Shown here: piece by piece, positions 12,281 to 62,245 of the stretch | Layout of the letters: the number at the start of each line of letters is the position of its first letter | Numbering within the stretch: the stretch's first letter is position 1 | Assembly: GCA_016841185.1 (NCBI GenBank) | Contig: JAENZQ010000002.1 | Coordinates: 1-64,000 of the forward strand | DNA from: Anaerovorax odorimutans | GTDB taxonomy: Bacteria; Bacillota; Clostridia; Peptostreptococcales; JAAYPU01 | Length of the DNA stretch: 64,000 nucleotides | Direction: 5' to 3' | Made by a program: the position numbers and the translations under genes | Notes under the pieces: model-generated | Databases searched by the model: none | What the model saw: the letters and a program-made list of their open reading frames with translations, nothing else | What the model was told of the DNA's origin: nothing

Positions 12281-12622
12281 TTATTTTTCGCTACATTGAC
12301 AATCACATCCACACTCACCCGTTTCTTCACGTTGACATCCGCCGTCATATGGTTTAGATGCAATTTCGATCATTTTTTCTCCAAGCTGCTTTAGAAGAGA
12401 CCGGTTTACAATGTAATGTGTATAATAGCCTCTTTTTTCTCCAGTAACCAAGCCAATCTTCCTTAGCATCTGAAGATGCTGTGAAACAGCTGGTTTAGAT
12501 ATATCAAGCTGTTTTGCCAACCCTCCGACACATAAGTCGTGGTTTAATAATATATTTATGATTTTAAATCTGGATTCGTCTGATATTATTTTTAAAATAT
12601 CATTATATTGTTTTAATTCCAC
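12281..12622 (-). CDS. ArsR-family winged-helix regulator with Cys-rich tail
   Basis: 113 residues from a GTG preceded by AAAGGGG. A winged helix-turn-helix (LDISKPAVSQHLQMLRKIGLVTGEKRGYYTHYIV, about 39-73) fits ArsR/SmtB repressors. The N-terminal half has one Cys next to the recognition helix (HDLCVGGLA). The C-terminus ends in a cluster of five cysteines (CQREETGECGCDCQC), a likely metal or metalloid sensing site that replaces the classic alpha-3 Cys pair. An imperfect palindrome at 12653-12676 in its promoter is the obvious autoregulatory site. The effector could be a soft metal. It lies between the AOR operon and the ABC operon and could serve either. Confidence 0.85.
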   Translation of the reverse strand: MELKQYNDILKIISDESRFKIINILLNHDLCVGGLAKQLDISKPAVSQHLQMLRKIGLVTGEKRGYYTHYIVNRSLLKQLGEKMIEIASKPYDGGCQREETGECGCDCQCSEK

Positions 12623-12754: not shown

Positions 12755-12979
12755 TCAGCCGCCTCCTACTGCTGGAAAAAAAGACACTACATCATTCTCA
12801 TATAATGTAAAGTTCATATTTTGAACCTTGCCATTTACAAGAACTATCTTAACCTCTTTAGGATCTATTTGGGCTAATGAAGCTAAAACCAGCGGTGTTG
12901 ATTCCGCCTCAATTTCAAATTGGTATTTACTGTTTCTGTTTTTTCTCAAACTCATAAAAAGCTTTAATTCAACCTTCAT
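12755..12979 (-). CDS. MoaD/ThiS-like sulfur carrier of the AOR operon
   Basis: 74 residues from the ATG at 12979, seven bases after GGAGG; an ATG one codon earlier is possible. The beta-grasp pattern (VELKLFMSL at the start, VKIVLVNGK, LYENDVVSFFPAVGGG at the end) and the terminal Gly-Gly are those of ubiquitin-like sulfur carriers that build the dithiolene of molybdo/tungstopterin. Many AOR loci have a dedicated MoaD copy. The tail reads GGG rather than the usual GG preceded by another residue. It overlaps the upstream ferredoxin gene and is the last gene of the glycyl radical operon. Confidence 0.82.
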   Translation of the reverse strand: MKVELKLFMSLRKNRNSKYQFEIEAESTPLVLASLAQIDPKEVKIVLVNGKVQNMNFTLYENDVVSFFPAVGGG

Positions 12980-13394
12980 CATTCTGCCTCCATCCAAACG
13001 ATAAACCCTTTTTGTTTGCTCTTATTAATTGAAATAAAGAGATTTTTTCTGCAATATCACATACTCTGCATTCTGGACATAGCTCATATGATTTTATCCC
13101 TTTTCTTACTTTTTTGCTTATATAAGAATTTATGGCTGCATCTATCGGGTTACCACAATTTCTGCAATTAAGAGTATTTTTGTCTTGGATATATACTTCA
13201 TCAATTGAATTGAATTTGCATTTACTTACACATATGCCGCAATTAATACATTTAGCCGTATCTATAAAAAATGATTCTTTAATTTTTCCTTCAATAGCTT
13301 CTGCAGGGCAGAATCTTTTACACAAACCACATTTCTTACATTCATTATCGTTTATCTTATAAATTCGGCGCATCCCGGTTTCATTTTTGCTCAT
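12969..13394 (-). CDS. Ferredoxin-like 2[4Fe-4S] protein with extra Cys cluster
   Basis: 141 residues. Two CxxCxxCxxxC(P/K) motifs (CKKCGLCKRFCP and CINCGICVSKCK, about 18-60) bind two [4Fe-4S] clusters. The C-terminal half adds CRNCG and CPECRVC, which could bind Zn or another cluster. It follows the AOR gene after a 73-base gap with a hairpin and overlaps the MoaD-like gene. It probably passes electrons from AOR to the ferredoxin pool or helps assemble the tungsten enzyme. Confidence 0.78.
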   Translation of the reverse strand: MSKNETGMRRIYKINDNECKKCGLCKRFCPAEAIEGKIKESFFIDTAKCINCGICVSKCKFNSIDEVYIQDKNTLNCRNCGNPIDAAINSYISKKVRKGIKSYELCPECRVCDIAEKISLFQLIRANKKGLSFGWRQNDEG

Positions 13395-13433
13395 GTTCTT
13401 AACCTCCCAAAACTCTGGTAGTAAATAATATCA

Positions 13434-13459
13434 GGCACCTGAGCAATTATTCAGGTGCC
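13434..13459 (-). other. Intercistronic hairpin between AOR and the second ferredoxin gene
   Basis: A perfect 9-bp GC-rich stem (GGCACCTGA / TCAGGTGCC) with an 8-nt loop, followed on the minus strand by only moderately T-rich sequence. It is likely an mRNA-end stabiliser or a leaky terminator rather than a full stop. Confidence 0.6.
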
Positions 13460-13467
13460 CAAAATAA

Positions 13468-15291
13468 TTATAAGTTTTTAATATTGTTCAAGCCAAGTTC
13501 ATCAAGTAAGGCCTGGGTCGGTACTCCCTTTTCATCCCATCTTCTAAGCGTATAATATTCGTCTAACATTTCCGAAAGCCTGTTGACATACCCCTTGCTT
13601 GGACCATCTATTACCGGTTCTTCTAACATTCTCTTTGGCAATATATCGTCATCTTTTGTGAATCCTATTTTTAAGTTGATCAGCCTTTCAAGATTCCATA
13701 TTCTTTCTCCTGCTTTTACGAAATCTTCTACGCTATAATCCACTCCGGTCACTGCTGTCATTTCCATTGCAAGTTCTTCAACCGATATACCGAAAGTAAC
13801 AAATAAGCATGTCCCGCTGGCATCTACTGCGGCTGAATTATTGTGAAAATCTATGGTGTGTTTAGCCTTTCCCTCTGTTGCAAACCTATCTACAACTTCA
13901 GGCAATCCGTAAATCTCAAGAGCCGGCATAAATCCTCTTACATGGCATGCCCCACGGTTACTGACTGCATAATTCAGTCCCATCGCCTGAAGCCCTCTTG
14001 GGTCATAAGCCGATAATTCTTGTTTCTTAACCGTCATAGATAGTTCAGGATGACCGTATTTTTCTGCCATACGATATGATCCTTCCGAAAGATCTCTTCC
14101 AAATCCTTGTTTATAAGCTGTTCTTTTAATAAGCTCTACCATGCTTTGAACATTGCCAAAAGAAATATCCATATCGGTCTGTTCCTTTGTGATATAACCA
14201 TTCTCATATAGTTCCATTGCACAAGCAATTGTCGCACCCATGGAGATTGTATCTATCCCCAACAAGTTGCATAACCTTCCTGCTGCCATTACTGCAGCCA
14301 TGTTATCATGTCCGCAGTTTGAACCAAAGGACCAAATGGTTTCAAGTTCAGGCCCTTCCCCATAGGTTTGAAATTCACCTTCCGAACGTGTGATCCTGCC
14401 GCATCTTATCGGACACGCATTACACCCTTTGGTCCGAACAAGCCATTTTTCGGTTTGTGCTTCTCCTGCTAATGCATCTGCATTGATATCTGTCCCGGTA
14501 TCACGGAAATTCCTAATGGGAAGAACACCTGCTTCATCAAGAAAGCTGTAAGTTACATTACTCCCATATATATGAAGCCCGCCTTCTGTTCCTGTACTTT
14601 CATTCGTTCTGAGAATTTTATTTACTTTTTCCATGGTTTTTCTAAAACCTTCAGGATCGGCAATATCTACTCCTCCTGTGCCTCTTACTGCTATTGCTTT
14701 CAGGTTTTTGCTCCCCATTACAGCACCTACTCCCGTACGGGCAGTTGCCCTGGCATAATCGTTCATGATGGCTGCAATTAATACCTGATTCTCTCCAGCT
14801 GGGCCTATACAATTAATTCGAGCCTTCTTATTTGTCTCTCCTAAAATCATATCTGTTGATTCATATGAATCTCTGCCCCATAAATGACCGGCGTCGCGCA
14901 GCTCTATCTCATCGTCATTGACCCATAAATACACCGGATTCTTCGACTTTCCTTCAACGATAATGCCGTCATAGCCGGCATATTTCAATTCTGGCCCAAA
15001 ATATCCACCGGAATTTGATGCTGCGATGGTTCCGGTCAATGGTCCTTTGCATACTACTTGATATCTTCCTGAGCAAACAGCCAAAGTCCCGGTTAAGGCA
15101 CCTGTCATAAAAATCAGCTTGTTATCTGAACTTAGAGGATCAACATTGGGATCGCATTCATCGATCCACATGCGTGTTCCCAATCCTCTACATCCTATAT
15201 ATTGTTTTGCATATTCATAATTCAGAGGCTCTTTTGTAATGACTTTATCAGTCAAGTTAACTCTGATGATCTGACCTTTCCATCCATGCAT
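13468..15291 (-). CDS. aor: Tungsten-dependent aldehyde:ferredoxin oxidoreductase
   Basis: 607 residues, full length for the AOR family. The N-terminal domain (MHGWKGQIIRVNLTDK...) and the CxxCxxxC at C290, C293 and C297 with a distal Cys in GTCLF near 495 form the [4Fe-4S] site beside the bis-pterin tungsten centre. The family oxidises aldehydes to carboxylic acids and reduces ferredoxin. Its ATG overlaps the stop of the upstream ferredoxin gene (TAATG), giving translational coupling. In this operon the likely substrate is the aldehyde made by the glycyl radical enzyme or the alcohol dehydrogenase. The exact aldehyde, and tungsten versus molybdenum, are family-based inference. Confidence 0.9.
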   Translation of the reverse strand: MHGWKGQIIRVNLTDKVITKEPLNYEYAKQYIGCRGLGTRMWIDECDPNVDPLSSDNKLIFMTGALTGTLAVCSGRYQVVCKGPLTGTIAASNSGGYFGPELKYAGYDGIIVEGKSKNPVYLWVNDDEIELRDAGHLWGRDSYESTDMILGETNKKARINCIGPAGENQVLIAAIMNDYARATARTGVGAVMGSKNLKAIAVRGTGGVDIADPEGFRKTMEKVNKILRTNESTGTEGGLHIYGSNVTYSFLDEAGVLPIRNFRDTGTDINADALAGEAQTEKWLVRTKGCNACPIRCGRITRSEGEFQTYGEGPELETIWSFGSNCGHDNMAAVMAAGRLCNLLGIDTISMGATIACAMELYENGYITKEQTDMDISFGNVQSMVELIKRTAYKQGFGRDLSEGSYRMAEKYGHPELSMTVKKQELSAYDPRGLQAMGLNYAVSNRGACHVRGFMPALEIYGLPEVVDRFATEGKAKHTIDFHNNSAAVDASGTCLFVTFGISVEELAMEMTAVTGVDYSVEDFVKAGERIWNLERLINLKIGFTKDDDILPKRMLEEPVIDGPSKGYVNRLSEMLDEYYTLRRWDEKGVPTQALLDELGLNNIKNL

Positions 15292-15770
15292 TATACAACA
15301 TCCTCCTTTTCTGCATTTCTGACTTTAGAAACGTATTTTTCCAGTTTCATTGTTGCTACATCCTCTGAATTGATATATAAAAGTGCATTAGAAGGACACC
15401 CTTTAACACATGCAGGATCTCCGCCGCATTGGTCACATTTTATCGGTTCTTTTCTCACCGGATCAAACTTCATACATCCAAACGGGCAGGCTGAAATACA
15501 AGCCTTACATTTTATGCAAAGACTATTATCAATTTTAACAACTCCGTCGGCCCCTCTTTCAATTGCATTTGTTGGACATACATTTTTACATGGCGAATCA
15601 TTGCATTGAAAACATAAAACAGGCGTTGCTATACCTACTTTTTCCCATGATGCAACTGATATTCTTGAAGCACTTGGCCTGCACTCCCTTGTATGGTTGA
15701 ATGCACACTCAAGCTCGCAGATCAAACAACTGGTACATTTTTCGGGATCGATCATAATTGTTTTTTCCAT
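15291..15770 (-). CDS. HycB-like electron-transfer ferredoxin, AOR partner subunit
   Basis: 159 residues with four Cys clusters in the HycB/DmsB pattern: CTSCLICELECAF, CFQCNDSPCKNVCP, CIKCKACISACP and CDQCGGDPACVKGCP, enough for four [4Fe-4S] centres. This is the usual small subunit of multi-subunit AOR and DMSO-reductase-type enzymes. It overlaps the AOR start by one base, so it is probably made in stoichiometric amounts with AOR and forms an electron path away from it. No NADH-binding subunit follows, so the acceptor is more likely ferredoxin. Confidence 0.85.
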   Translation of the reverse strand: MEKTIMIDPEKCTSCLICELECAFNHTRECRPSASRISVASWEKVGIATPVLCFQCNDSPCKNVCPTNAIERGADGVVKIDNSLCIKCKACISACPFGCMKFDPVRKEPIKCDQCGGDPACVKGCPSNALLYINSEDVATMKLEKYVSKVRNAEKEDVV

Positions 15771-15869: not shown

Positions 15870-16787
15870 TCACTTAACATCTAAACCTAAATTTCTGAAT
15901 ATCTGTTTTCTTTCTTCAAGGTATTTCTTATTTCTGTCCGGTTTAACCGGTTCAATAGATTTCAGCAAATACTCTTTACCCAGCTGTTCGTATTTCGTTT
16001 GGCCAAGGCGATGATAGAGCAAAAGCGTTACACTCTTCAACCCTAGCTCATTCTTAACAAATTTCCCGGTACATGATAGATTATCCTGTTGGTCGTTAAT
16101 ACCGAGTATTAATGGAATCCTGATCTCTATTTCCTTCTTTTCTTTTGATAGTTTTTTCAGGTTGTCCAATATGAGAGAATTTTCAACACCGATATATTTT
16201 TTATGTTCCGGGGAACTCATGTGTTTGATATCAATTAAAAACAAATCTACAAACGGCAGTAGCTTCTCTATATTTTCCCAACCGCAATAAGCGGTTGTTT
16301 CTATAGCTGTATGGAGCTTTTTCTCTTTTAAAGCTTTAAGCAATTCCAAACAAAAATCGAATTGGTAAAGCGGTTCTCCTCCCGAAAGCGTAACGCCGCC
16401 ATTACTACGGTTATAGAAGTCAATGTCCTTCATGACATAATCTGTTATTTCTTCAGCGGTCATAACGCGATTTGTATTTCTAAGAGTATCGTTGGGACAT
16501 ACTTTTGCACAATTGCCACATCTGCTGCATAATTCTCTGTCTATAAAAACGCCCTTTCCCTCTTTTCGCTGAATTGCACTATTCCCACAAGCAGTAATAC
16601 ATAAACCACATTTATCTGCACCGATGCATTCTTGCTCCATCAGCATAATCTCGTTATTTATACTCTGCGATTCCGGATTGGAACACCATTGACAGCTTAA
16701 GGGACAACCTTTAAAAAATACCAGCGTTCTTATCCCCGGACCATCATGAACTGCAAACCGTTGAATATCAAAAATTAAACCTCTCAT
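15870..16787 (-). CDS. Glycyl radical enzyme activating enzyme (radical SAM)
   Basis: 305 residues. The radical SAM motif CPLSCQWC (C28, C32, C35) lies in the signature FFKGCPLSCQWCSNPES, and a 2[4Fe-4S] insert follows (C54-C67 and CSRCGNCAKVCP near 86-97). This is the PflA-like group that activates glycerol or diol dehydratases and C-X lyases rather than PFL itself, which lacks the insert. The enzyme cleaves SAM and abstracts hydrogen from the glycine of its partner. It starts 33 bases after the partner's stop, with AGGAGAG before the ATG. Confidence 0.9.
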   Translation of the reverse strand: MRGLIFDIQRFAVHDGPGIRTLVFFKGCPLSCQWCSNPESQSINNEIMLMEQECIGADKCGLCITACGNSAIQRKEGKGVFIDRELCSRCGNCAKVCPNDTLRNTNRVMTAEEITDYVMKDIDFYNRSNGGVTLSGGEPLYQFDFCLELLKALKEKKLHTAIETTAYCGWENIEKLLPFVDLFLIDIKHMSSPEHKKYIGVENSLILDNLKKLSKEKKEIEIRIPLILGINDQQDNLSCTGKFVKNELGLKSVTLLLYHRLGQTKYEQLGKEYLLKSIEPVKPDRNKKYLEERKQIFRNLGLDVK

Positions 16788-16820: not shown

Positions 16821-19265
16821 CTAAATAACAAACTCTGTTCTTTCAATAATGTCGTTTTGCAGAGCAGGACCCAATCTAACAAAGTATGCGCTGTATCCGG
16901 CAACACGAACTACCAAGCTCTTATATTTTTCCGGATTTTTTTGAGCATCTCTTAGCATATCTGCACTTACTACATTTATTTGATTATGGAATCCACCTTT
17001 TTCAAAATATACCTTGGCGGCATTCATAAAATTCCTGTTTCCTTCCAGTCCCGAAAGAGCGCTTGGGTGGTACTTCTGGTTGAGAAGTGTTCCGTTAGAA
17101 GCAATTACATGGTCTACTTTTGCGACAGATTTTAATGCTGCAGTCGGTCCGCTGATATCTCTCCCATGTACCGGTGATATACCATCTGCCAGTGCAACAC
17201 CGGCTTGCCTTCCATCTGCGCTTGCCCATGTTGTTTTTCCAAAAGGAATGTTGGCGGAAACGGGATATAAGCCTGGCTGGAATATACCGCCTCTGGCATT
17301 GGGCTTATTTTCTATTTCCTTGCAATATGTTAAAGCTGCAAAATGTCCAAATGCATCCACATAATCATCATCATTCCCGAAATGAGGTGCTTGCGCCATC
17401 TGCTGCTGTAAAACTTCATAGCCTTCCCAATTGGCCAATAATGCTTTATACAACTCTGAAGCAGTGACCTTCTTTTCTTTAAATACCATCGTATCAATTG
17501 CAGCCAGACAATCAGCTACATTTGAAATAGCAATTCCCTGAGGCCCTGTAAAGTTATATTTTGCACCGCCGTGAGAAACCCCAATTCCCCTTTCAACGCA
17601 AGGGTCTATCAATAATGAAGGAATTAAAACAGGAGACATTTCCTGATGAACTTTGTCCTCGATATTATTGGTCATAATAATTAACTCTGCAAAATAACTT
17701 ACTTGCTTCTTATATGCATCCATTACATCTTCAATGCTTTTCATATCCGGCAGTCTCCCTGTCGGAACACCGACACGGCCGTATTCCTTATATTTCGGAT
17801 CCATTGGGTACCCATCGTTGATAGCAAGTTCCAGGCATTTCAAGAGGTTAAAAAAACCCGAATCATGCCAAGCGTATGTCTTTCCGGGGACATCCGGCTC
17901 TACACACCCAACAATACTGAAATCTCTTGCATCTTCTAAATCCACACCTCTATTCAAAAGCATCTGAATAGTAACTTCATCATTATAAAAAGCAGGCATG
18001 CCTAAACCGAGTTTATTGACTTCAATGGCCTTTTCCCATAAAGAATCCGGGTTTTTTACAGACAGACGGACAGATATTGCCGGTTCACACATCTTCGTCC
18101 TACCGGAAGCATTTAATACCATATAAGACAACTCATTGGTTGCATCCAATCCATCTCTGGTAAGTCCTCCTGCTTGTAAATTCTGAGACTTACATGCACC
18201 TGAAAAGCATTCTGTAACAGGAGTACTCTTAATTTTTTCTGTTTCTCCAAGTTTGACCCAGACACTGTCAATAAGCTCTTGAGCCTCTCTCATTGAAATA
18301 ACGTTGCTTTCGATATCATTTTTAAAATAAGGATACATATACTGATCCCAACGGCCGGGTGAGATTGAATGCCCATTGGATTCAATTTGTATGGCAACTT
18401 GAATAAACCAAAATGATTGAATTGCTTCCCAGAAACTCCTGGCAGGATACATGGGTACATGATCACAATTTTCGGCTATTTTAGACAGCTCCCATTTTCT
18501 CTGCAGGTCATTTTCTTTTTCTGCCAAATCCCTTGCCATTTGTGCATATCTCTTCGAAAAGACTTCCATGGCATCAATGCTGATTACTGCAGCATCATAA
18601 AATGTCACTTTATCCCCATAATCAGGATCTAAATGATTCAGACATGATTTTCTATCCAAAATTTCTTCTTTAATGGAAGCTAATCCTCTATTAATAGCTT
18701 TATCATAGCCACAGGTAAAGTGACCAATTCCTCCCGTAATATAATTCCCTACATCAAATACATTTGCTGCCAGTGCAGATTTTGCTTTTTCGGGAATCAT
18801 GCTGTATGATCGATCATATACTGTGTGCCCAAGCCAGTAATCTTTTATGGAACGAAGTTTCTCTTTTGTTTCCTCAGTAATGATATATGGTTCCAGTTCT
18901 CTTTGATCAAAGGGCTGGTTTTCCATTTCATCCATAATCCAATCATATGAATACTCAGGATAGATCATAGATGAAAGCGGCTTGAATGCCAAATTACCAA
19001 CAATCAACTCGTCCGGTTTAATATAAATTGTTTTCTCCTTCAACATTTTGTAAAGAGCCTTTGCTCTTCTCATATGAATCGGTTCATTTTCTGTTTCTTT
19101 ATAAGATTCTGTTATAATAACAGCTCTCTCCGGATCGATTTCGCTATTATGACTTAAAACATACTCTACATTTTTCTGTATACGCTCGCTTGGAGTAAAA
19201 TCATGTTCCAACGGATCAAATGGCTCCTCCCAATTAGGAACAAGATGAAATTTTTTATTACCCAT
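16821..19265 (-). CDS. Glycyl radical enzyme, dehydratase/C-X lyase (PFL2) group
   Basis: 814 residues from the ATG at 19265, six bases after AAGGAGG; an in-frame ATG 19 codons upstream lies inside the previous gene and has no ribosome site. The thiyl Cys and its base are in GCVEP (C454, E456). The radical glycine is G790 in RVAGYSAYF, close to the C-terminus. GCVEP places it with the glycerol/diol dehydratase, CutC and sulfonate-lyase types; the substrate cannot be read reliably. With a GldA-type dehydrogenase and AOR in the same operon, a polyol such as glycerol or 1,2-propanediol giving an aldehyde is reasonable. No microcompartment shell genes are present, nor an N-terminal targeting peptide. 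Confidence 0.88.
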   Translation of the reverse strand: MGNKKFHLVPNWEEPFDPLEHDFTPSERIQKNVEYVLSHNSEIDPERAVIITESYKETENEPIHMRRAKALYKMLKEKTIYIKPDELIVGNLAFKPLSSMIYPEYSYDWIMDEMENQPFDQRELEPYIITEETKEKLRSIKDYWLGHTVYDRSYSMIPEKAKSALAANVFDVGNYITGGIGHFTCGYDKAINRGLASIKEEILDRKSCLNHLDPDYGDKVTFYDAAVISIDAMEVFSKRYAQMARDLAEKENDLQRKWELSKIAENCDHVPMYPARSFWEAIQSFWFIQVAIQIESNGHSISPGRWDQYMYPYFKNDIESNVISMREAQELIDSVWVKLGETEKIKSTPVTECFSGACKSQNLQAGGLTRDGLDATNELSYMVLNASGRTKMCEPAISVRLSVKNPDSLWEKAIEVNKLGLGMPAFYNDEVTIQMLLNRGVDLEDARDFSIVGCVEPDVPGKTYAWHDSGFFNLLKCLELAINDGYPMDPKYKEYGRVGVPTGRLPDMKSIEDVMDAYKKQVSYFAELIIMTNNIEDKVHQEMSPVLIPSLLIDPCVERGIGVSHGGAKYNFTGPQGIAISNVADCLAAIDTMVFKEKKVTASELYKALLANWEGYEVLQQQMAQAPHFGNDDDYVDAFGHFAALTYCKEIENKPNARGGIFQPGLYPVSANIPFGKTTWASADGRQAGVALADGISPVHGRDISGPTAALKSVAKVDHVIASNGTLLNQKYHPSALSGLEGNRNFMNAAKVYFEKGGFHNQINVVSADMLRDAQKNPEKYKSLVVRVAGYSAYFVRLGPALQNDIIERTEFVI

Positions 19266-19284
19266 AAAAAGTCCTCCTTTCAGA

Positions 19285-19698
19285 CTATCGGCTCCTATAC
19301 TTTTCGTAATATTTCTTAACACCTGCCTGTGCTATGGCGATATCCTGTTCAACTGACCCTCCTGAAACGCCAATTGCACCAACTAATACGTCATCCCGAA
19401 ATAAGGGAATCCCTCCGCCAAATATGACATATCTACATTGATTTGTCGTATTTAGTCCAAATAATGATTGCCCGGTTTGTGACAATTTTCCTAATTCTTC
19501 AGTAGTCGTTTTTGTAGCAGCAGCTGTAAATGCTTTATCTTTTGAAATATCTATACTTCCAAAAATAGCGCCATCCATCCTTTTGAGTGCCACTAAATGC
19601 CCGCCGGCATCTACTACTGAAATAATAACCGGAATACCAAGATTTTTTGCCTTTTCAAAAGAAGCATTTATTATTTCTTCGGCAAGCTGCAGATACAT
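19285..19698 (-). CDS. GlcG/HbpS-like (DUF336-type) small protein
   Basis: 137 residues from the ATG at 19698; a GTG three codons earlier lies inside the AGAGGTGAGG ribosome site. The sequence has the whole GlcG/HbpS pattern: SVVDAGGHLVALKRMDGA, DKAFTAA and the terminal GGGIPLFRDDVLVGAIGVSGGSVEQDIAIAQAG. Members are found beside glycolate oxidase, diol dehydratase and dehydrogenase genes; some bind haem or cobalamin-like cofactors, but the biochemical role is mostly unsettled. It lies 19 bases before the glycyl radical enzyme start. Confidence 0.82.
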   Translation of the reverse strand: MYLQLAEEIINASFEKAKNLGIPVIISVVDAGGHLVALKRMDGAIFGSIDISKDKAFTAAATKTTTEELGKLSQTGQSLFGLNTTNQCRYVIFGGGIPLFRDDVLVGAIGVSGGSVEQDIAIAQAGVKKYYEKYRSR

Positions 19699-19734
19699 CG
19701 TCCTCACCTCTTTGAATATAAAATGACTTGTATA

Positions 19735-19770
19735 TTAGATATTACTGCTGTATACAGCAGTAATATCTAA
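19735..19770 (-). other. Strong intercistronic hairpin before the GlcG-like gene
   Basis: A perfect 16-bp inverted repeat (TTAGATATTACTGCTG and its complement) with a TATA loop, between the membrane-protein gene and the GlcG-like gene. No T-run follows on the minus strand, so termination is unlikely. It may shield the 5' end of the abundant glcG/glycyl-radical mRNA. Confidence 0.7.
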
Positions 19771-19815
19771 TTGTAAGAAGGTTAAACATATTTTATTTAG
19801 CATTATTGTGAACAT

Positions 19816-20856
19816 TTATACAAGCTCAGTCTGGCTGCCAATTAATTTGTCTTTGTTTCTTTTGATATATGATTGTTGATAAACAGACAGAATAATTGAA
19901 AGTGCAATAATGATTGCAGGTAAAACAATAATCAATTGTTCATTAAAAAGATTCAATTTCGGCGCTATGACGAAAAATAAAAATGACGTAAAACTGATGG
20001 ACATTCCAGGGGGATCAACCCAACAGTCACCGTAAACCAAGAATAGTCTTGCAAGATAGTCTCCTGCAAAAGCACCAATAATACCGCCGGCTACCCCCCA
20101 CATAAGGCTGCCGCTCATAAGAACTCCATAAGATGCTCCAAGCGCTATATGATGGAAAATCGGAACATTGATACCTGAAAGCAACAGAAGGAATGCCGCA
20201 ACACCTATACAAAATCCAACAAAAGGCGCACCTGCAGCAGTTTCCGGAATTTGAAGCATAAGATAAGTCACATACCCGGAAAGTCCACCGATAACGATAC
20301 CCATAAGTGTCAGCTCTGTCGCGGTATTTTGCCATGGAAGCCATACATTATCATGAAGTACGCTGAATCTTCCACCGGCTTGTTTTACTTTATCCGGTGT
20401 TTTACCGAATATCTCTGCTAATCCTGTTGTGCCAAATGAAACCTTCGCAATGATTGCTGAAAGAAATACTGTAAATGCAACAGTATCGATCATGCCTGTC
20501 ATAATGACATTAAGCCCGGTTGATATTACATATGCTATAATTCCAAATATTCCACCTACTATCAGAACATCCGGCCTTCTCAGGGTTATTAATGCTTTTC
20601 CTATATCTTTTCCACTTTCAATATAACCTCTTCTTGAAGCATATGCTGCTGCAGCACAAGCCCCTCCAAAGGAGATATGCGGACCAAAGAATGGACCAAA
20701 GGTAATAACGCCAAGCCAGTCAAAGGTGGATCCTGCAACGCTCAATGCTATGCCAATAAGCCCTGTCACACCAACAAATGCAAATGCCCCCAGGGCACCC
20801 ATAGCTGATGCTAATAGACCGCCACAAAAAGAAACAAATACCAGAACTATATCCAT
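19816..20856 (-). CDS. Multi-pass membrane protein of unknown family, possible substrate permease
   Basis: 346 residues with about ten hydrophobic segments and a glycine-rich first helix (VSFCGGLLASAMGALGAFAFVG). Characteristic pieces are GPFFGPHISFGGACAAAAYASRRGY, a soluble loop about residues 145-170, and GGIIGAFAGDYLARLF. I do not recognise the family. It is the second gene of the glycyl radical operon, after the dehydrogenase, so an uptake or facilitator role for the diol or product is a reasonable guess. It is preceded by GGGAGG. It lacks ABC, MFS, TRAP or aquaglyceroporin (NPA) motifs. Confidence 0.7.
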   Translation of the reverse strand: MDIVLVFVSFCGGLLASAMGALGAFAFVGVTGLIGIALSVAGSTFDWLGVITFGPFFGPHISFGGACAAAAYASRRGYIESGKDIGKALITLRRPDVLIVGGIFGIIAYVISTGLNVIMTGMIDTVAFTVFLSAIIAKVSFGTTGLAEIFGKTPDKVKQAGGRFSVLHDNVWLPWQNTATELTLMGIVIGGLSGYVTYLMLQIPETAAGAPFVGFCIGVAAFLLLLSGINVPIFHHIALGASYGVLMSGSLMWGVAGGIIGAFAGDYLARLFLVYGDCWVDPPGMSISFTSFLFFVIAPKLNLFNEQLIIVLPAIIIALSIILSVYQQSYIKRNKDKLIGSQTELV

Positions 20857-20892
20857 AATTTATAAACCTCCCTAAGTTGCTGTTATTTTTTT

Positions 20893-20924
20893 AAGAGGTA
20901 TTGTTTTTAATAACGATACCTCTT
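20893..20924. other. Intercistronic hairpin between the dehydrogenase and membrane-protein genes
   Basis: A 13-bp stem (AAGAGGTAT.. / ..ATACCTCTT, one G-T pair) with a 6-nt loop. The T-run is on the plus-strand side only, so it is not a terminator for the minus-strand operon. Confidence 0.55.
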
Positions 20925-20951
20925 TTATATAAATCATCCGAAATACAATAA

Positions 20952-22073
20952 TTAAACGATTGATAGTCCTTGTTTAACTCTTTTGCCCATTGCATCTGCA
21001 GTAATTACTGCATCATAAACCATTTGATCGGTAATCGGGAATGCATGATTATGCATGATTTTATCAGGCAGAGTTGATAAATGAACAGCCTCCATCAACT
21101 TTTCAGGACCAACTTTATCAATATTAAGATCTGCAAGAGTTATTGGAAGCCCAACTTTATGGCAGAAATCAAAAACTTGCTGAATCGTTTCTTTTGGTCT
21201 GCACTCAAGAACCAATTGAGTCAATGTTAAGAAAGCAACTTTTTCTCCGTGATAATAATCATGAATTTCCGGAAATATTGTAAACCCGTCCTGAAGTGAA
21301 TGTGCAGCTGCAAGACCACCGCTTTCAAAGCCTATCCCGCTTAACAATGTATTGGCTTCAACCACTTTTTCTAAGGCAGGTGTAACCACTTTGCTTTCTG
21401 CGGCAATTTTAGCTTGCATACCATATTCCATCAAGATATCAAAACATAATTTTGCTACTGCTATTGCCGTTGCCGTTGGTTGTCCCCCCGGTAGGTTAAT
21501 GCTGCAAGCTCTGTTACAAGCATCTGCTTCAAACCAAGTAGCAAGTGCGTCTCCCATACCCGCAACAAGCAATCTGGAAGGCGCCTGAGCAATGATTTCC
21601 GTATCAACCAAAACAATATCGGGGTTTCTTCTTGGGATATAGAACTCTACAAACACACCTTCTTCGTCATAAACAACAGACAATGCACTTGTAGGCGCAT
21701 CTGTAGAAGCGATAGTTGGCAGAATAACTGTTGCAACATTCGCTTTATCAGCTGCAGCTTTTACTGTGTCCATCGTTTTCCCGCCGCCGCTTGCAATTAT
21801 CACATCACATTTATTCTTTATGGCCAGTTCTTTGACTCTTTCGATCTCATTATAAGTTACTTCGCCGTTAAACAGCTCTTCTATTTGTTCAATGCCTTTT
21901 TCTTTAAAACTTTTTTCTCTTCCTGATCTGGTAGTTGATAAGCCTGTTTTCCCTCCAATTACCAATGCCTTTTTACAGCCTAATGTAGAAAGATGGTCTC
22001 CCAACTCATACATAGCTCTTCTTCCTTGTACATATCTGCCAGGTGCAATCATAACGTTTGTAAATTTTCCCAT
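20952..22073 (-). CDS. Iron-type alcohol dehydrogenase, glycerol dehydrogenase (GldA) subgroup
   Basis: 373 residues. The NAD-binding GGGKTMDTVKA (about 95-105), the metal-site stretch GMGDALATWFEAD (about 170-182), and later histidines in AAHSLQDGF and HDYYHGEKVAF are those of GldA-type enzymes, which use a metal (usually Zn) to oxidise glycerol and other vicinal diols with NAD+. It is the first gene of the nine-gene operon, 68 bases downstream of a sigma-54 promoter, with GGAGG before the ATG. It may oxidise the diol or reduce the aldehyde formed by the glycyl radical enzyme; direction cannot be inferred. Confidence 0.85.
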   Translation of the reverse strand: MGKFTNVMIAPGRYVQGRRAMYELGDHLSTLGCKKALVIGGKTGLSTTRSGREKSFKEKGIEQIEELFNGEVTYNEIERVKELAIKNKCDVIIASGGGKTMDTVKAAADKANVATVILPTIASTDAPTSALSVVYDEEGVFVEFYIPRRNPDIVLVDTEIIAQAPSRLLVAGMGDALATWFEADACNRACSINLPGGQPTATAIAVAKLCFDILMEYGMQAKIAAESKVVTPALEKVVEANTLLSGIGFESGGLAAAHSLQDGFTIFPEIHDYYHGEKVAFLTLTQLVLECRPKETIQQVFDFCHKVGLPITLADLNIDKVGPEKLMEAVHLSTLPDKIMHNHAFPITDQMVYDAVITADAMGKRVKQGLSIV

Positions 22074-22140: not shown

Positions 22141-22156
22141 AGCAATAACTATGCCA
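22141..22156 (-). promoter_or_regulatory. Sigma-54 (-24/-12) promoter
   Basis: On the minus strand the sequence is TGGCATAGTTATTGCT. The invariant GG (22155-22154) and GC (22143-22142) are separated by exactly 10 bases, and TGGCA/TTGCT match the consensus TGGCAC-N5-TTGCW with few changes. It lies 68 bases before the dehydrogenase start and next to a sigma-54 activator gene. Confidence 0.82.
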
Positions 22157-22234
22157 TAATGATTTTATTTCTAAAAACCGGTGAATTTAAAAGATTTCAG
22201 AGTCTTTTTACCTATTTCACAGCTGTAACGATAC

Positions 22235-22284
22235 TGTAACATCTGTGTCAACCCCCTACTCTCACGCGTGACACTCCTGTTACA
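22235..22284. promoter_or_regulatory. Upstream activator sequence: 16-base inverted repeat
   Basis: The arms TGTAACATCTGTGTCA (22235-22250) and TGACACTCCTGTTACA (22269-22284) are inverted copies matching at 13 of 16 positions, 18 bases apart. A further CTGTAAC lies at 22223-22229. The repeat ends about 80-130 bases upstream of the -24 box, the usual place for enhancer sites of NtrC-family activators. Confidence 0.72.
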
Positions 22285-22421
22285 CCTATGTTCAGTATTA
22301 AATTATATTTTTCTATAGCTTTTATCCAATTGAGAATAAACCCAACCGAAGTGCATATACAAAGCAATATATCTCAATTATTAATATATAATTTGGAACT
22401 TTCATTCCATTTTGTAAAAAA

Positions 22422-22454
22422 AAAAGGTGTTAGCCTAATGAGCTATCACCTTTT
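22422..22454 (-). terminator. Terminator of the sigma-54 activator gene
   Basis: A 13-bp stem with one mismatch (AAAAGGTGTTAGC / GCTATCACCTTTT) and a 7-nt loop. On the minus strand it is followed by a run of nine or more T, nine bases after the gene's stop. Confidence 0.8.
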
Positions 22455-22462
22455 ATCAAGAA

Positions 22463-24478
22463 CTAAATCTTAATGCCGTATTTTTTTAACTTCCTGTATA
22501 CCGTGTTCCTGGACACTCCCATGGCATGAGCAACTTGTGTAATGTTCCCTCCAAAATCCAAAAGTTTTTTTTCAATCAACATCCGCTCTTCTTCTTCCAG
22601 ATTCGCTTTTTTCTTTAATCTTACTTCATCAATGGATACTTCCTTGGTCTCTATCAAATGATCCAAGCTTTTGTTTTTATTTGCATTCATATCTTTGTTG
22701 CAAAATATCTCTTCAGGAAGGTTCTCTATTGTAAGAATATCCGAATTATTAATGCTCATCATTCTTTCCACAATATTTTGAAGCTCCCTGACATTTCCCG
22801 GCCAAGGATATTTAAATAAATGAGGAAAAATGTGGGGATCGATAGTTTTTATCACATAACCGCTTTTTCTCCCTATGGCATTCACAAAATATCTAAAGAG
22901 TAATTCGATATCTTTCTCTCTCTCACGAAGCGGAGGGATTTTTATAGAAATTACATTCAGCCTATAATATAGATCCTGTCTGAAATTTCCTCTTTCTACT
23001 TCATTATAAAGTGACTTATTGCTGGCACAAATAACGCGTACATCTACCGGAATTTCCTTGTTATCGCCAATACGAATGACCTTTCTTTCCTGTATTACTC
23101 TTAAGAGACTTACTTGCTGTTCAAGCGGCATGTCACCTATTTCATCCAAGAAAATGGTGCCTTGTGAAGCCTGCTCGAATTTCCCGGACCTACCTCCCCG
23201 AACTGCACCGGTAAAAGCGCCTTCAATATATCCAAACAATTCACTGCCTACCAATTCTCTTGGAATAGCGCCGCAATTCACACAAACAAAAGGACCTTTT
23301 CTTCTTCGGCTTTGATTGTGAATTGCCTGAGCAAAAACTTCCTTCCCAGTTCCGCTTTCACCTTCCAGCAAAACTGTGGCTTCATTTTCAGATGCTTTTA
23401 AAGCAATATTCATAACTTCCTTTATTTTAGTGCTTTCTCCAATGATATCTTCAAAATTCATTTGTGCCCGATGGCTGCCGTATTTGGTAACCAATTTTTG
23501 AATTTTATCCATTGGCCTTATTACAGTAACCATACCTGTAAAGCCGTCTTCATCGTCTTTAATGGGTACGCCGGAAATCAGGCACTCTGCCATACCATTT
23601 GATGTTTTTAATGAGATTTCTATATCATGAAACTCAGAATCAGATGTAAGAACCCTTTTAGCATAATGATTTCCTTTAATTATTTCATCCATTGACTTTC
23701 CTAAAGCAAAATCCTTGCCGAGGATTTCTTCTGCTGCCGGGTTCATCATTTCTATCTTCTTGTTATCATCATAAATGATGATCGCTTCGGATACTTTGTG
23801 AAATATATTGATCATTCTTTCATTAATGGCCTGTAATTCTCTGTTTTTTTGTCTTATGGTAAGCAAGTGCTGAATGGCTTCAACAGCTGCTACGACCATC
23901 CCCAATGTATGCTTATGCACACTATAAGAAGGCCCGGATACATTAACAATCCCTATCAGTTTTCCTGCCTTATCAAGAATAGGCGCCCCTGAGCATGTGA
24001 AGTTATGACTTTTCTTGCAATAATGTTCCGCTCCAGTCATTTGTATCGGCTTTTTATGGTGAAGAATAATACCCATGGTAGTAGAACCTACATACTCTTC
24101 TTTCCAGCAGGCGCCCTTCATAAAGTTAATATTTGAGGCTTCTTCCTCCATAACTGTGTCTCCAAAAAAATCTAAAATATAACCCTCTGAATTTAACAAC
24201 ACCACATAAAAGCCCGAGTTTTTGAAAAATTTGTATAATTTGTACAAAAATGGCCTGGATACTTCAATAAGTTCTTCATGGTTTTCCAACAAATTTTCCA
24301 GTTCAATCCCTTTTAATATATGGTTACAAACCCCTCCGTAAGGGTCAACATTCGCTCTTCTGCACCTCTTCCAAGACTCGGCTATCTCCGGTCTGACAAT
24401 CTGATTATTATAGTTTTCGCTATTGATATATTCTTTCCACTCATTATAAATGCTTTCATTAAAATCATTATTAATCAT
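22463..24478 (-). CDS. Sigma-54-dependent activator, GAF-PAS-AAA+-Fis (AcoR-like)
   Basis: 671 residues. Residues about 75-205 form a GAF-like sensor with CSGAPILDKAGKLIGIVNVSGP, as in AcoR-type regulators. About 220-330 is a PAS domain (IFHKVSEAIIIYDDNKKIEMMNPAAEEILG). The AAA+ domain has Walker A GESGTGKE (373-380) and the sigma-54 contact motif GAFTGA (420-425). The C-terminus is a Fis-type helix-turn-helix (ITQVAHAMGVSRNTVYRKLKKYG). There is no receiver domain, so it senses a small molecule directly. The gene is just upstream of, and codirectional with, the glycyl radical operon, whose promoter is -24/-12 with an inverted repeat, so it is the probable regulator. Confidence 0.92.
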   Translation of the reverse strand: MINNDFNESIYNEWKEYINSENYNNQIVRPEIAESWKRCRRANVDPYGGVCNHILKGIELENLLENHEELIEVSRPFLYKLYKFFKNSGFYVVLLNSEGYILDFFGDTVMEEEASNINFMKGACWKEEYVGSTTMGIILHHKKPIQMTGAEHYCKKSHNFTCSGAPILDKAGKLIGIVNVSGPSYSVHKHTLGMVVAAVEAIQHLLTIRQKNRELQAINERMINIFHKVSEAIIIYDDNKKIEMMNPAAEEILGKDFALGKSMDEIIKGNHYAKRVLTSDSEFHDIEISLKTSNGMAECLISGVPIKDDEDGFTGMVTVIRPMDKIQKLVTKYGSHRAQMNFEDIIGESTKIKEVMNIALKASENEATVLLEGESGTGKEVFAQAIHNQSRRRKGPFVCVNCGAIPRELVGSELFGYIEGAFTGAVRGGRSGKFEQASQGTIFLDEIGDMPLEQQVSLLRVIQERKVIRIGDNKEIPVDVRVICASNKSLYNEVERGNFRQDLYYRLNVISIKIPPLREREKDIELLFRYFVNAIGRKSGYVIKTIDPHIFPHLFKYPWPGNVRELQNIVERMMSINNSDILTIENLPEEIFCNKDMNANKNKSLDHLIETKEVSIDEVRLKKKANLEEEERMLIEKKLLDFGGNITQVAHAMGVSRNTVYRKLKKYGIKI

Positions 24479-60435: not shown

Positions 60436-61761
60436 TTACCATTCTAAAGTCTTAAATGTATCGGGACCAGCTTCACCTGATTTAATGAAAATTGCAGCAC
60501 TTCCTGCTATAGCCTTTTCAATAAAATCTGTTCTCACTTTATCGTAAGGAGTATGTGCATATTGTTCCTGCATTGCAGAATAACCGATAGTCGGTTTTCT
60601 GTCGATTCCCGCAGTTTTGCTTCCGTCAGTTCCAAAATCCCAGTAGCCGTATTTGACTTCCTGTCCAACTGCTTCAAGTGCCTCAGCACACGCTTTTGTG
60701 AATGGATGGTCTTTTGGCGTTTTCCATGGATCCATATCTTTTGTTGCTTCGATTTCCATACCGGTATAAGATTTTTCAACCTTTGACTTCACAACAACAT
60801 CCGCTTTGAATTCAGGGTCCTTCTTTGCTAATTCATCAATAATATCCTGAATCTGCTGTCTTGCACTTTCTGCGGATTCGCCCGGTATTGTTCTTCTGTC
60901 AATTGAAAGCATACATTGATCCGGAACGATAGATAAAGCCCCTGGAGAACATTCTATGATATTCAAAGATAAGGATGCCTGACCTAATTCTTTGTCAGTT
61001 GGAAGAGATGGATAGAGTTCATCCTTTAATTTGGTAATCAACGGAATTGCTTTATAAATTGAATTGATTCCCAACCAAGGTGCACTGCCGTGGCTGGTTC
61101 TGCCGTACACAGTTGCATAGAATTCAACACGGCCTCTGTGACCCAGATACAGCTTAAGACTGGTAGCCTCTGAGGAAACCATTGCATCATAAGTCAAACC
61201 TTTTTCTTTAAAAGTCTTATCTATCATATAGGACATGCCTACCATTTCAGCAGGTTCTTCCTGAACAACTCCGGTATACATGTAATTTCCTTTGAATTTA
61301 TATCCCATCTTCTTTAATTCGGCAATGACAGCTCCGCCATAAATTTGAAATGCATGCCCTGCTTTTACATCAGATGCACCTCTTCCATGGATACATTCCG
61401 TCTTATCCTTACCTGTCTTATCCTGATTGTCGATCTCACAGATATCAATCTGTCCGCCATATGGATCATAGCCTTCCCAGTTATTAGGATCACCAGGAGC
61501 AACATGGTCCATATGAGAGTTATACATAATTGTAGGTCCTTCTTCATCTCCTTTTACAAGTCCGATTATGTTTCCCTGAGCGTCCCTGAAACACTCATCA
61601 TAACCCACTTTTTTCATTTCTGCCATAAGTAGTTCAGTCAAATCACCTTCTTCACCGCTGATGGAAGGAGTCTGTACTAATTTTTGGGTAAACTTTACTG
61701 CATCTTCCTTATACTTCGCAGCTAACTCAACCACTTTGTCAAATATTTCCTGATTTTTCAT
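60436..61761 (-). CDS. M20-family metallohydrolase, YgeY-like
   Basis: 441 residues. Dinuclear-metal motifs are YNSHMDHVAPGD (about 75-86), GRGASDVKAGHA and VQEEPAE; a lid domain (about 210-330) and the final metal His region follow. YgeY-type proteins sit in purine or selenium-linked catabolic clusters of anaerobes. With preT/preA downstream on the same strand, a role in degrading a nitrogen compound such as a ureido or carbamoyl acid is likely. Substrate not assigned. Confidence 0.85.
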   Translation of the reverse strand: MKNQEIFDKVVELAAKYKEDAVKFTQKLVQTPSISGEEGDLTELLMAEMKKVGYDECFRDAQGNIIGLVKGDEEGPTIMYNSHMDHVAPGDPNNWEGYDPYGGQIDICEIDNQDKTGKDKTECIHGRGASDVKAGHAFQIYGGAVIAELKKMGYKFKGNYMYTGVVQEEPAEMVGMSYMIDKTFKEKGLTYDAMVSSEATSLKLYLGHRGRVEFYATVYGRTSHGSAPWLGINSIYKAIPLITKLKDELYPSLPTDKELGQASLSLNIIECSPGALSIVPDQCMLSIDRRTIPGESAESARQQIQDIIDELAKKDPEFKADVVVKSKVEKSYTGMEIEATKDMDPWKTPKDHPFTKACAEALEAVGQEVKYGYWDFGTDGSKTAGIDRKPTIGYSAMQEQYAHTPYDKVRTDFIEKAIAGSAAIFIKSGEAGPDTFKTLEW

Positions 61762-62245
61762 TCAATTTCACTCCTTGTCTTTTTTATATTATTCTGGCAC
61801 ATCATACCAGAATATATGCTGAAATTTGAAACTTTTCTCCACCGTACACCAATAAGCCATTGACAGAAATCAACTATCTGACTGAGATCTCAATCCCGGC
61901 CTATTCTTGAGTTCATATTTAACAAAATACCTCCTTCTCATTGAGCATATGTATCGATACTTCGCTAAAGAATGCGAAAAGAAATTAGATTGTAACGGTA
62001 AAAAGGATAGATAGAAATGTGCAAAAACACAATATTAATAAAAAAGCAAAAAATATGCCAAGCCTTACATGTAAGCATTCATGAGATTAATTCAATTTTA
62101 CTTAGCTTAGTTTGATTTAATAATGAATCAATTATTCCTTTCATGCAGAATTATTCTTTTGATTTTCAATAACAAGCGAACCTTCAAACTATATATTATG
62201 GCTGATTCGATTGTGAATCTATCTGATTCATTATTTTATCATTCT
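61762..62245. other. Intergenic region upstream of the M20 hydrolase gene
   Basis: 484 AT-rich bases with no supported gene, riboswitch or convincing terminator for the MgtC-like gene. It must contain the hydrolase-preT-preA promoter. Confidence 0.45.

Follow-up and report, generated by a model that had tools for sequence, protein, structure and literature searches.

The region at positions 22,141 to 22,284 of the window, the 64-kb stretch of Anaerovorax odorimutans DNA analysed here, is likely a standard sigma-54 enhancer-promoter that is driven by the adjacent activator through two tandem binding sites. The elements follow one another on the minus strand as the activator gene, its terminator, an A+T-rich spacer, repeats (22284-22224), a -24/-12 element, a leader, and a glycyl radical enzyme operon that begins with a gldA-like gene. 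A sequence-only reading had proposed a full sigma-54 circuit here, which is supported by the present analysis and also by two homologous loci, and the circuit is unremarkable in this genome.

The -24/-12 element ATGGCATAGTTATTGCT (22157->22141, minus strand) matches 11 of the 12 fixed positions of TTGGCAT-N5-TTGCT, the sigma-54 consensus that Nie et al. 2019 (PMC6615313) give for Clostridiales. Its GG (22155-22154) and GC (22143-22142) are separated by N10, so both the exact GG-N10-GC spacing and the coordinates of the earlier reading were right, and it lies 68 bases 5' of the gldA-like gene (20952-22073). Taken alone, the 11/12 match is evidence of medium weight, with three sites of at least 11/12 found in the 64-kb window against 0.3 expected in order-1 random sequence; the promoter evidence is strong because the position and orientation of the match fit. 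The transcript start predicted from the element lies at about 22130, leaving 57 bases of leader, which include a strong ribosome site, before the gldA-like gene. No sigma-70-like match 5' of this gene rose above the background level.

The AcoR-like activator with GAFTGA that had been read beside the promoter is borne out by its domains. The gene (22463-24478, minus strand) encodes a DhaR/AcoR-type sigma-54 activator of 671 aa with the order GAF-PAS-AAA(GAFTGA)-HTH_8 by Pfam and NCBIfam, and the protein displays the features of an enhancer-binding protein, namely an AAA domain with GAFTGA and Walker motifs (PF00158, Sigma54_activat, 232 bits) and a C-terminal Fis-type HTH (PF02954, HTH_8, 47 bits). 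Its best NCBIfam model is DhaR (NF008485, residues 16-670), at 403 bits below the curated cut-off of 551, and it falls short of PrdR as well (NF041552, 400.4 bits against a curated cut-off of 795); the closest orthologues reach 44% identity at best. Although the domain order is common to DhaR/AcoR-type activators, the target in the window is neither dhaKLM nor acoABC; the nearest paralogue in the genome among the loci read, L074, adjoins an acoA-like gene. An intrinsic terminator at 22416-22452 (minus strand; hairpin plus 10 T, RNA fold -12.4 kcal/mol, z -4.4) sets the activator gene apart from the operon, whose start has no further regulator gene beside it. The genome contains about 37 sigma-54 activators and one complete sigma-54 gene (476 aa) with the RpoN box RRTIAKYRE.

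Upstream of the promoter, the 16-base inverted repeat reported 80-130 bases away is present at a measured distance of about 78-127 bases 5' of the element, its left arm TGTAACAGGAGTGTCA (22284->22269, minus strand) and right arm TGACACAGATGTTACA (22250->22235, minus strand) being complementary at 13/16 positions around an 18-base loop. This repeat is not significant alone, since an equally good one occurs in 11% of random 389-base intergenic sequences (P ~0.11), and comparable inverted repeats form 31 clusters in the 64-kb window. A role as a terminator or RNA element was rejected, the repeat having no T-run and lying 5' of the predicted start; an Rfam search gave no match within the 64-kb window.

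Because the inverted repeat lacks significance alone, the sites used by relatives of the activator were examined at seven loci whose activators are 40-44% identical to that of the window and carry a similar recognition helix (mostly GIGRxTLYRK, against GVSRNTVYRK in the window). The sites of these relatives lie 3' of the activator gene and follow TGTWYCA-N3-TGRWACA (TGT-N11-ACA), with pairs 43-45 bp apart in 6/7 loci and 61 bp apart in L157; the second site of L151 has 3 mismatches. The window differs in its half-site (TGTWACA rather than TGTWYCA) and spacer (N4 rather than N3). The paralogous loci L074 and L075 carry TGTTAGATTATCTAACA and TGTAATATAATTTTACA, with TGTWA half-sites as in the window, and A or S precedes the arginine of their recognition helices. 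The 43-45 bp pairing offers a search rule for enhancers of this activator type. Three loci with related activators (L156, L158, and L159) show three TGTWYCA-N3-TGRWACA-like sites spaced 19 and 43-45 bp; they precede small membrane-protein genes and form a clean set on which the geometry of enhancers could be modelled.

Read in this register, the window holds two candidate dimer sites on the minus strand exactly 43 bp apart. Site 1, TGTAACAGGAGTGTCACG (22284-22267), has 2 mismatches to TGTWNCA-N4-TGNWACA and a weak right half, and site 2, TGTTACAGTATCGTTACA (22241-22224), has 1 mismatch and is the better of the two, being the genome's only exact TGTWACA-N5-GTWACA; in terms of the TGT-N10-12-ACA class, the window contains one full TGT-N12-ACA and another whose right half is degenerate. 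An equally good pair was found in 0/4000 random intergenic sequences, an optimistic figure because the half-site and spacer had been loosened after the window was seen. The earlier proposal that the inverted repeat is the activator site therefore holds in part: the left arm lies in site 1 and probably makes up most of one dimer site, while the right arm merely overlaps, by its last heptamer only, the better site, which that proposal had missed and which reaches outside the repeat. To judge from this arrangement, the enhancer most likely consists of two tandem dimer sites rather than one large palindrome, the palindrome itself being most likely for the most part a by-product of half-site repetition.

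Recognition by the activator of one long palindrome made of both arms (22284-22269 and 22250-22235) is accordingly unlikely. The 13/16 complementarity speaks for it, as does the scarcity of exact TGTAACA-N4-TGTCA in the genome, with two of the five copies at the window repeats. Against these stand the frequency of such repeats in random intergenic sequences, the tandem sites of the relatives, whose 43-45 bp register the window fits, and the extension of the better-fitting site beyond the repeat. A search of the whole genome for the repeat of the earlier reading yielded no second pair.

The homologous loci L148 and L190 contain no such repeat sites, though activator and promoter are kept, and the enhancer is therefore not conserved between these circuits. 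This would suit a real promoter whose neighbouring repeats bind another regulator, for example a repressor, with the adjacent activator acting at other sites; we consider this quite improbable, since the half-site class, the spacing, and the distance to the promoter suit the activator family and the activator gene is the only regulator gene at the operon start. The circuit was also examined by comparison, with gldA homologues sought in 395 genomes of the same order and 29 of their loci read. An adjacent sigma-54 activator was present at 2/29, both with an 11/12 or 12/12 promoter just upstream of gldA; among the 27 without one, 26 have no promoter of at least 9/12 within 400 bases, and the remaining locus has one of 10/12 at a distance of 300 bases. 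One of the two loci with an adjacent activator, L148, repeats the order of the window (activator, promoter, gldA, glycyl radical enzyme, activase), and circuit and operon therefore travel together outside this genome. That the -24/-12 match arose by chance, the operon being transcribed from a different promoter or by polymerase running on from the activator gene, is very hard to credit: chance would supply about 0.3 such matches in 64 kb, but the element is correctly placed and oriented beside an activator gene, no rival promoter exceeds background, a terminator follows the activator gene, and promoter and activator co-occur at gldA loci.

From the sequence elements, gene content, and comparative association observed, we infer activator binding, a signal, and dependence on sigma-54 for the two-site circuit. 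Sigma-54 RNA polymerase would wait in a closed state on the -24/-12 element (22141-22157). Dimers of the GAF-PAS activator, supplied by a separately terminated gene, would occupy the tandem pair of TGTWACA-type sites, which are separated by four helical turns and centred near 22232 and 22275, about 103 and 145 bases upstream of the start. Sensing of a metabolite would trigger formation of the activator hexamer, DNA looping to the polymerase, and promoter opening. The genes switched on would be those for the gldA-like, membrane, and HbpS-like proteins, the glycyl radical dehydratase and its activase, followed by the ferredoxin, aldehyde ferredoxin oxidoreductase, and MoaD-like genes.

The operon, all on the minus strand, starts with the glycerol dehydrogenase-like protein of the Fe-ADH family (GldA; NF006941, 487 bits, cut-off 336), followed by a 346-aa membrane protein (19816-20856) matching no Pfam or NCBIfam family and an HbpS-like protein of the PduO C-terminal type (19285-19707, PF03928). 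Relatives of the membrane protein occur in 23/395 genomes of the order; at L191 one lies beside pduO/pduP/pduS/pduL-like genes and gldA in a propanediol-utilisation-type locus. The protein was rejected as a marker of the same operon elsewhere, its relatives sitting in other contexts, one of them propanediol-type; it is a candidate diol transporter or channel. The joint recurrence of GldA-like, HbpS-like, and membrane protein genes at L191 points toward a diol or polyol as the substrate.

The glycyl radical enzyme (16821-19322) belongs to the dehydratase type by TIGR01774 (774 bits, over cut-off), and an internal ATG 57 bases downstream may be its true start. Its nearest solved structures are 1r8w (glycerol dehydratase) and 5i2a (diol dehydratase), and alignment to 1r8w showed that the catalytic Cys-x-Glu, Asp, His, and His-Ser and the glycyl loop are retained. 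Serine replaces the tyrosine 339 of glycerol dehydratase; the glycerol dehydratase pocket is thus not matched, and the alignment points to no named substrate. No homologue above 48% identity was found in 395 genomes of the same order and 391 of the same class (~780), leaving no close orthologue for phylogenetic footprinting; the enzyme possibly represents a new substrate class. Next come the radical SAM activase (15870-16787, TIGR02494), a 4Fe-4S ferredoxin-type protein (15291-15770, Pfam), an aldehyde ferredoxin oxidoreductase (13468-15291; PF01314, PF02730), a second 4Fe-4S protein probably of the same operon (12969-13394, Pfam), and a ThiS/MoaD-like protein (12755-12997, PF02597), probably the last gene. 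A near-perfect sigma-70 promoter TTGACA-17-TATACT (12689-12661, minus strand), 3' of the MoaD-like gene, precedes an ArsR-type regulator (12281-12622) and probably marks the operon end. Strong minus-strand intercistronic hairpins without good T-runs (19720-19775, z -4.5; 20875-20925, z -2.3; 13431-13462, z -5.9) may serve to process or stabilise the mRNA and so set unequal levels along the operon.

The dehydratase-type enzyme and activase are shared with B12-independent glycerol/propanediol dehydratase operons, whereas the window enzyme is remote from them in sequence (48% to the best homologue found) with serine for Tyr339, and its operon includes an aldehyde ferredoxin oxidoreductase, which would oxidise the aldehyde made by the dehydratase. 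We tentatively suggest, as a possibility short of an even chance, that an uncatalogued activator group here controls a new glycyl radical dehydratase pathway through an enhancer whose two N4-spaced dimer sites are separated by four turns. Such a pathway would act on a diol-like substrate, and the aldehyde would be oxidised by the aldehyde ferredoxin oxidoreductase, an enzyme of the tungsten type. In the predicted inducer-responsive switch, the metabolite that activates the GAF-PAS activator is probably the dehydratase substrate or one related to it.

The architecture is well made but common, the house style of this genome and well described in Clostridiales. A promoter of at least 10/12 precedes a nearby operon in 23/35 other activator neighbourhoods of the genome, mostly ordered as activator, terminator, promoter, and operon. 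Nie et al. 2019 (PMC6615313) describe the same arrangement for 263 activators, 65% of which control one operon and most of which adjoin it. The regulons presented there share with the window the promoter consensus, a local one-operon activator, PAS-bearing one-component activators, and aor-moaD among the targets (AorR); they also have several upstream TGT-N10-12-ACA sites, a class to which the candidate sites of the window would belong. The main text and Table 1 of that paper name neither a glycyl radical enzyme operon nor one led by gldA, and the target in the window is therefore possibly a new entry in that list, not a new kind. A 12/12 sigma-54 promoter with no activator gene nearby within the window, TTGGCATATTTTTTGCT, lies at 62045-62061 (minus strand); 284 bases separate it from the peptidase-like gene that follows (60436-61761).
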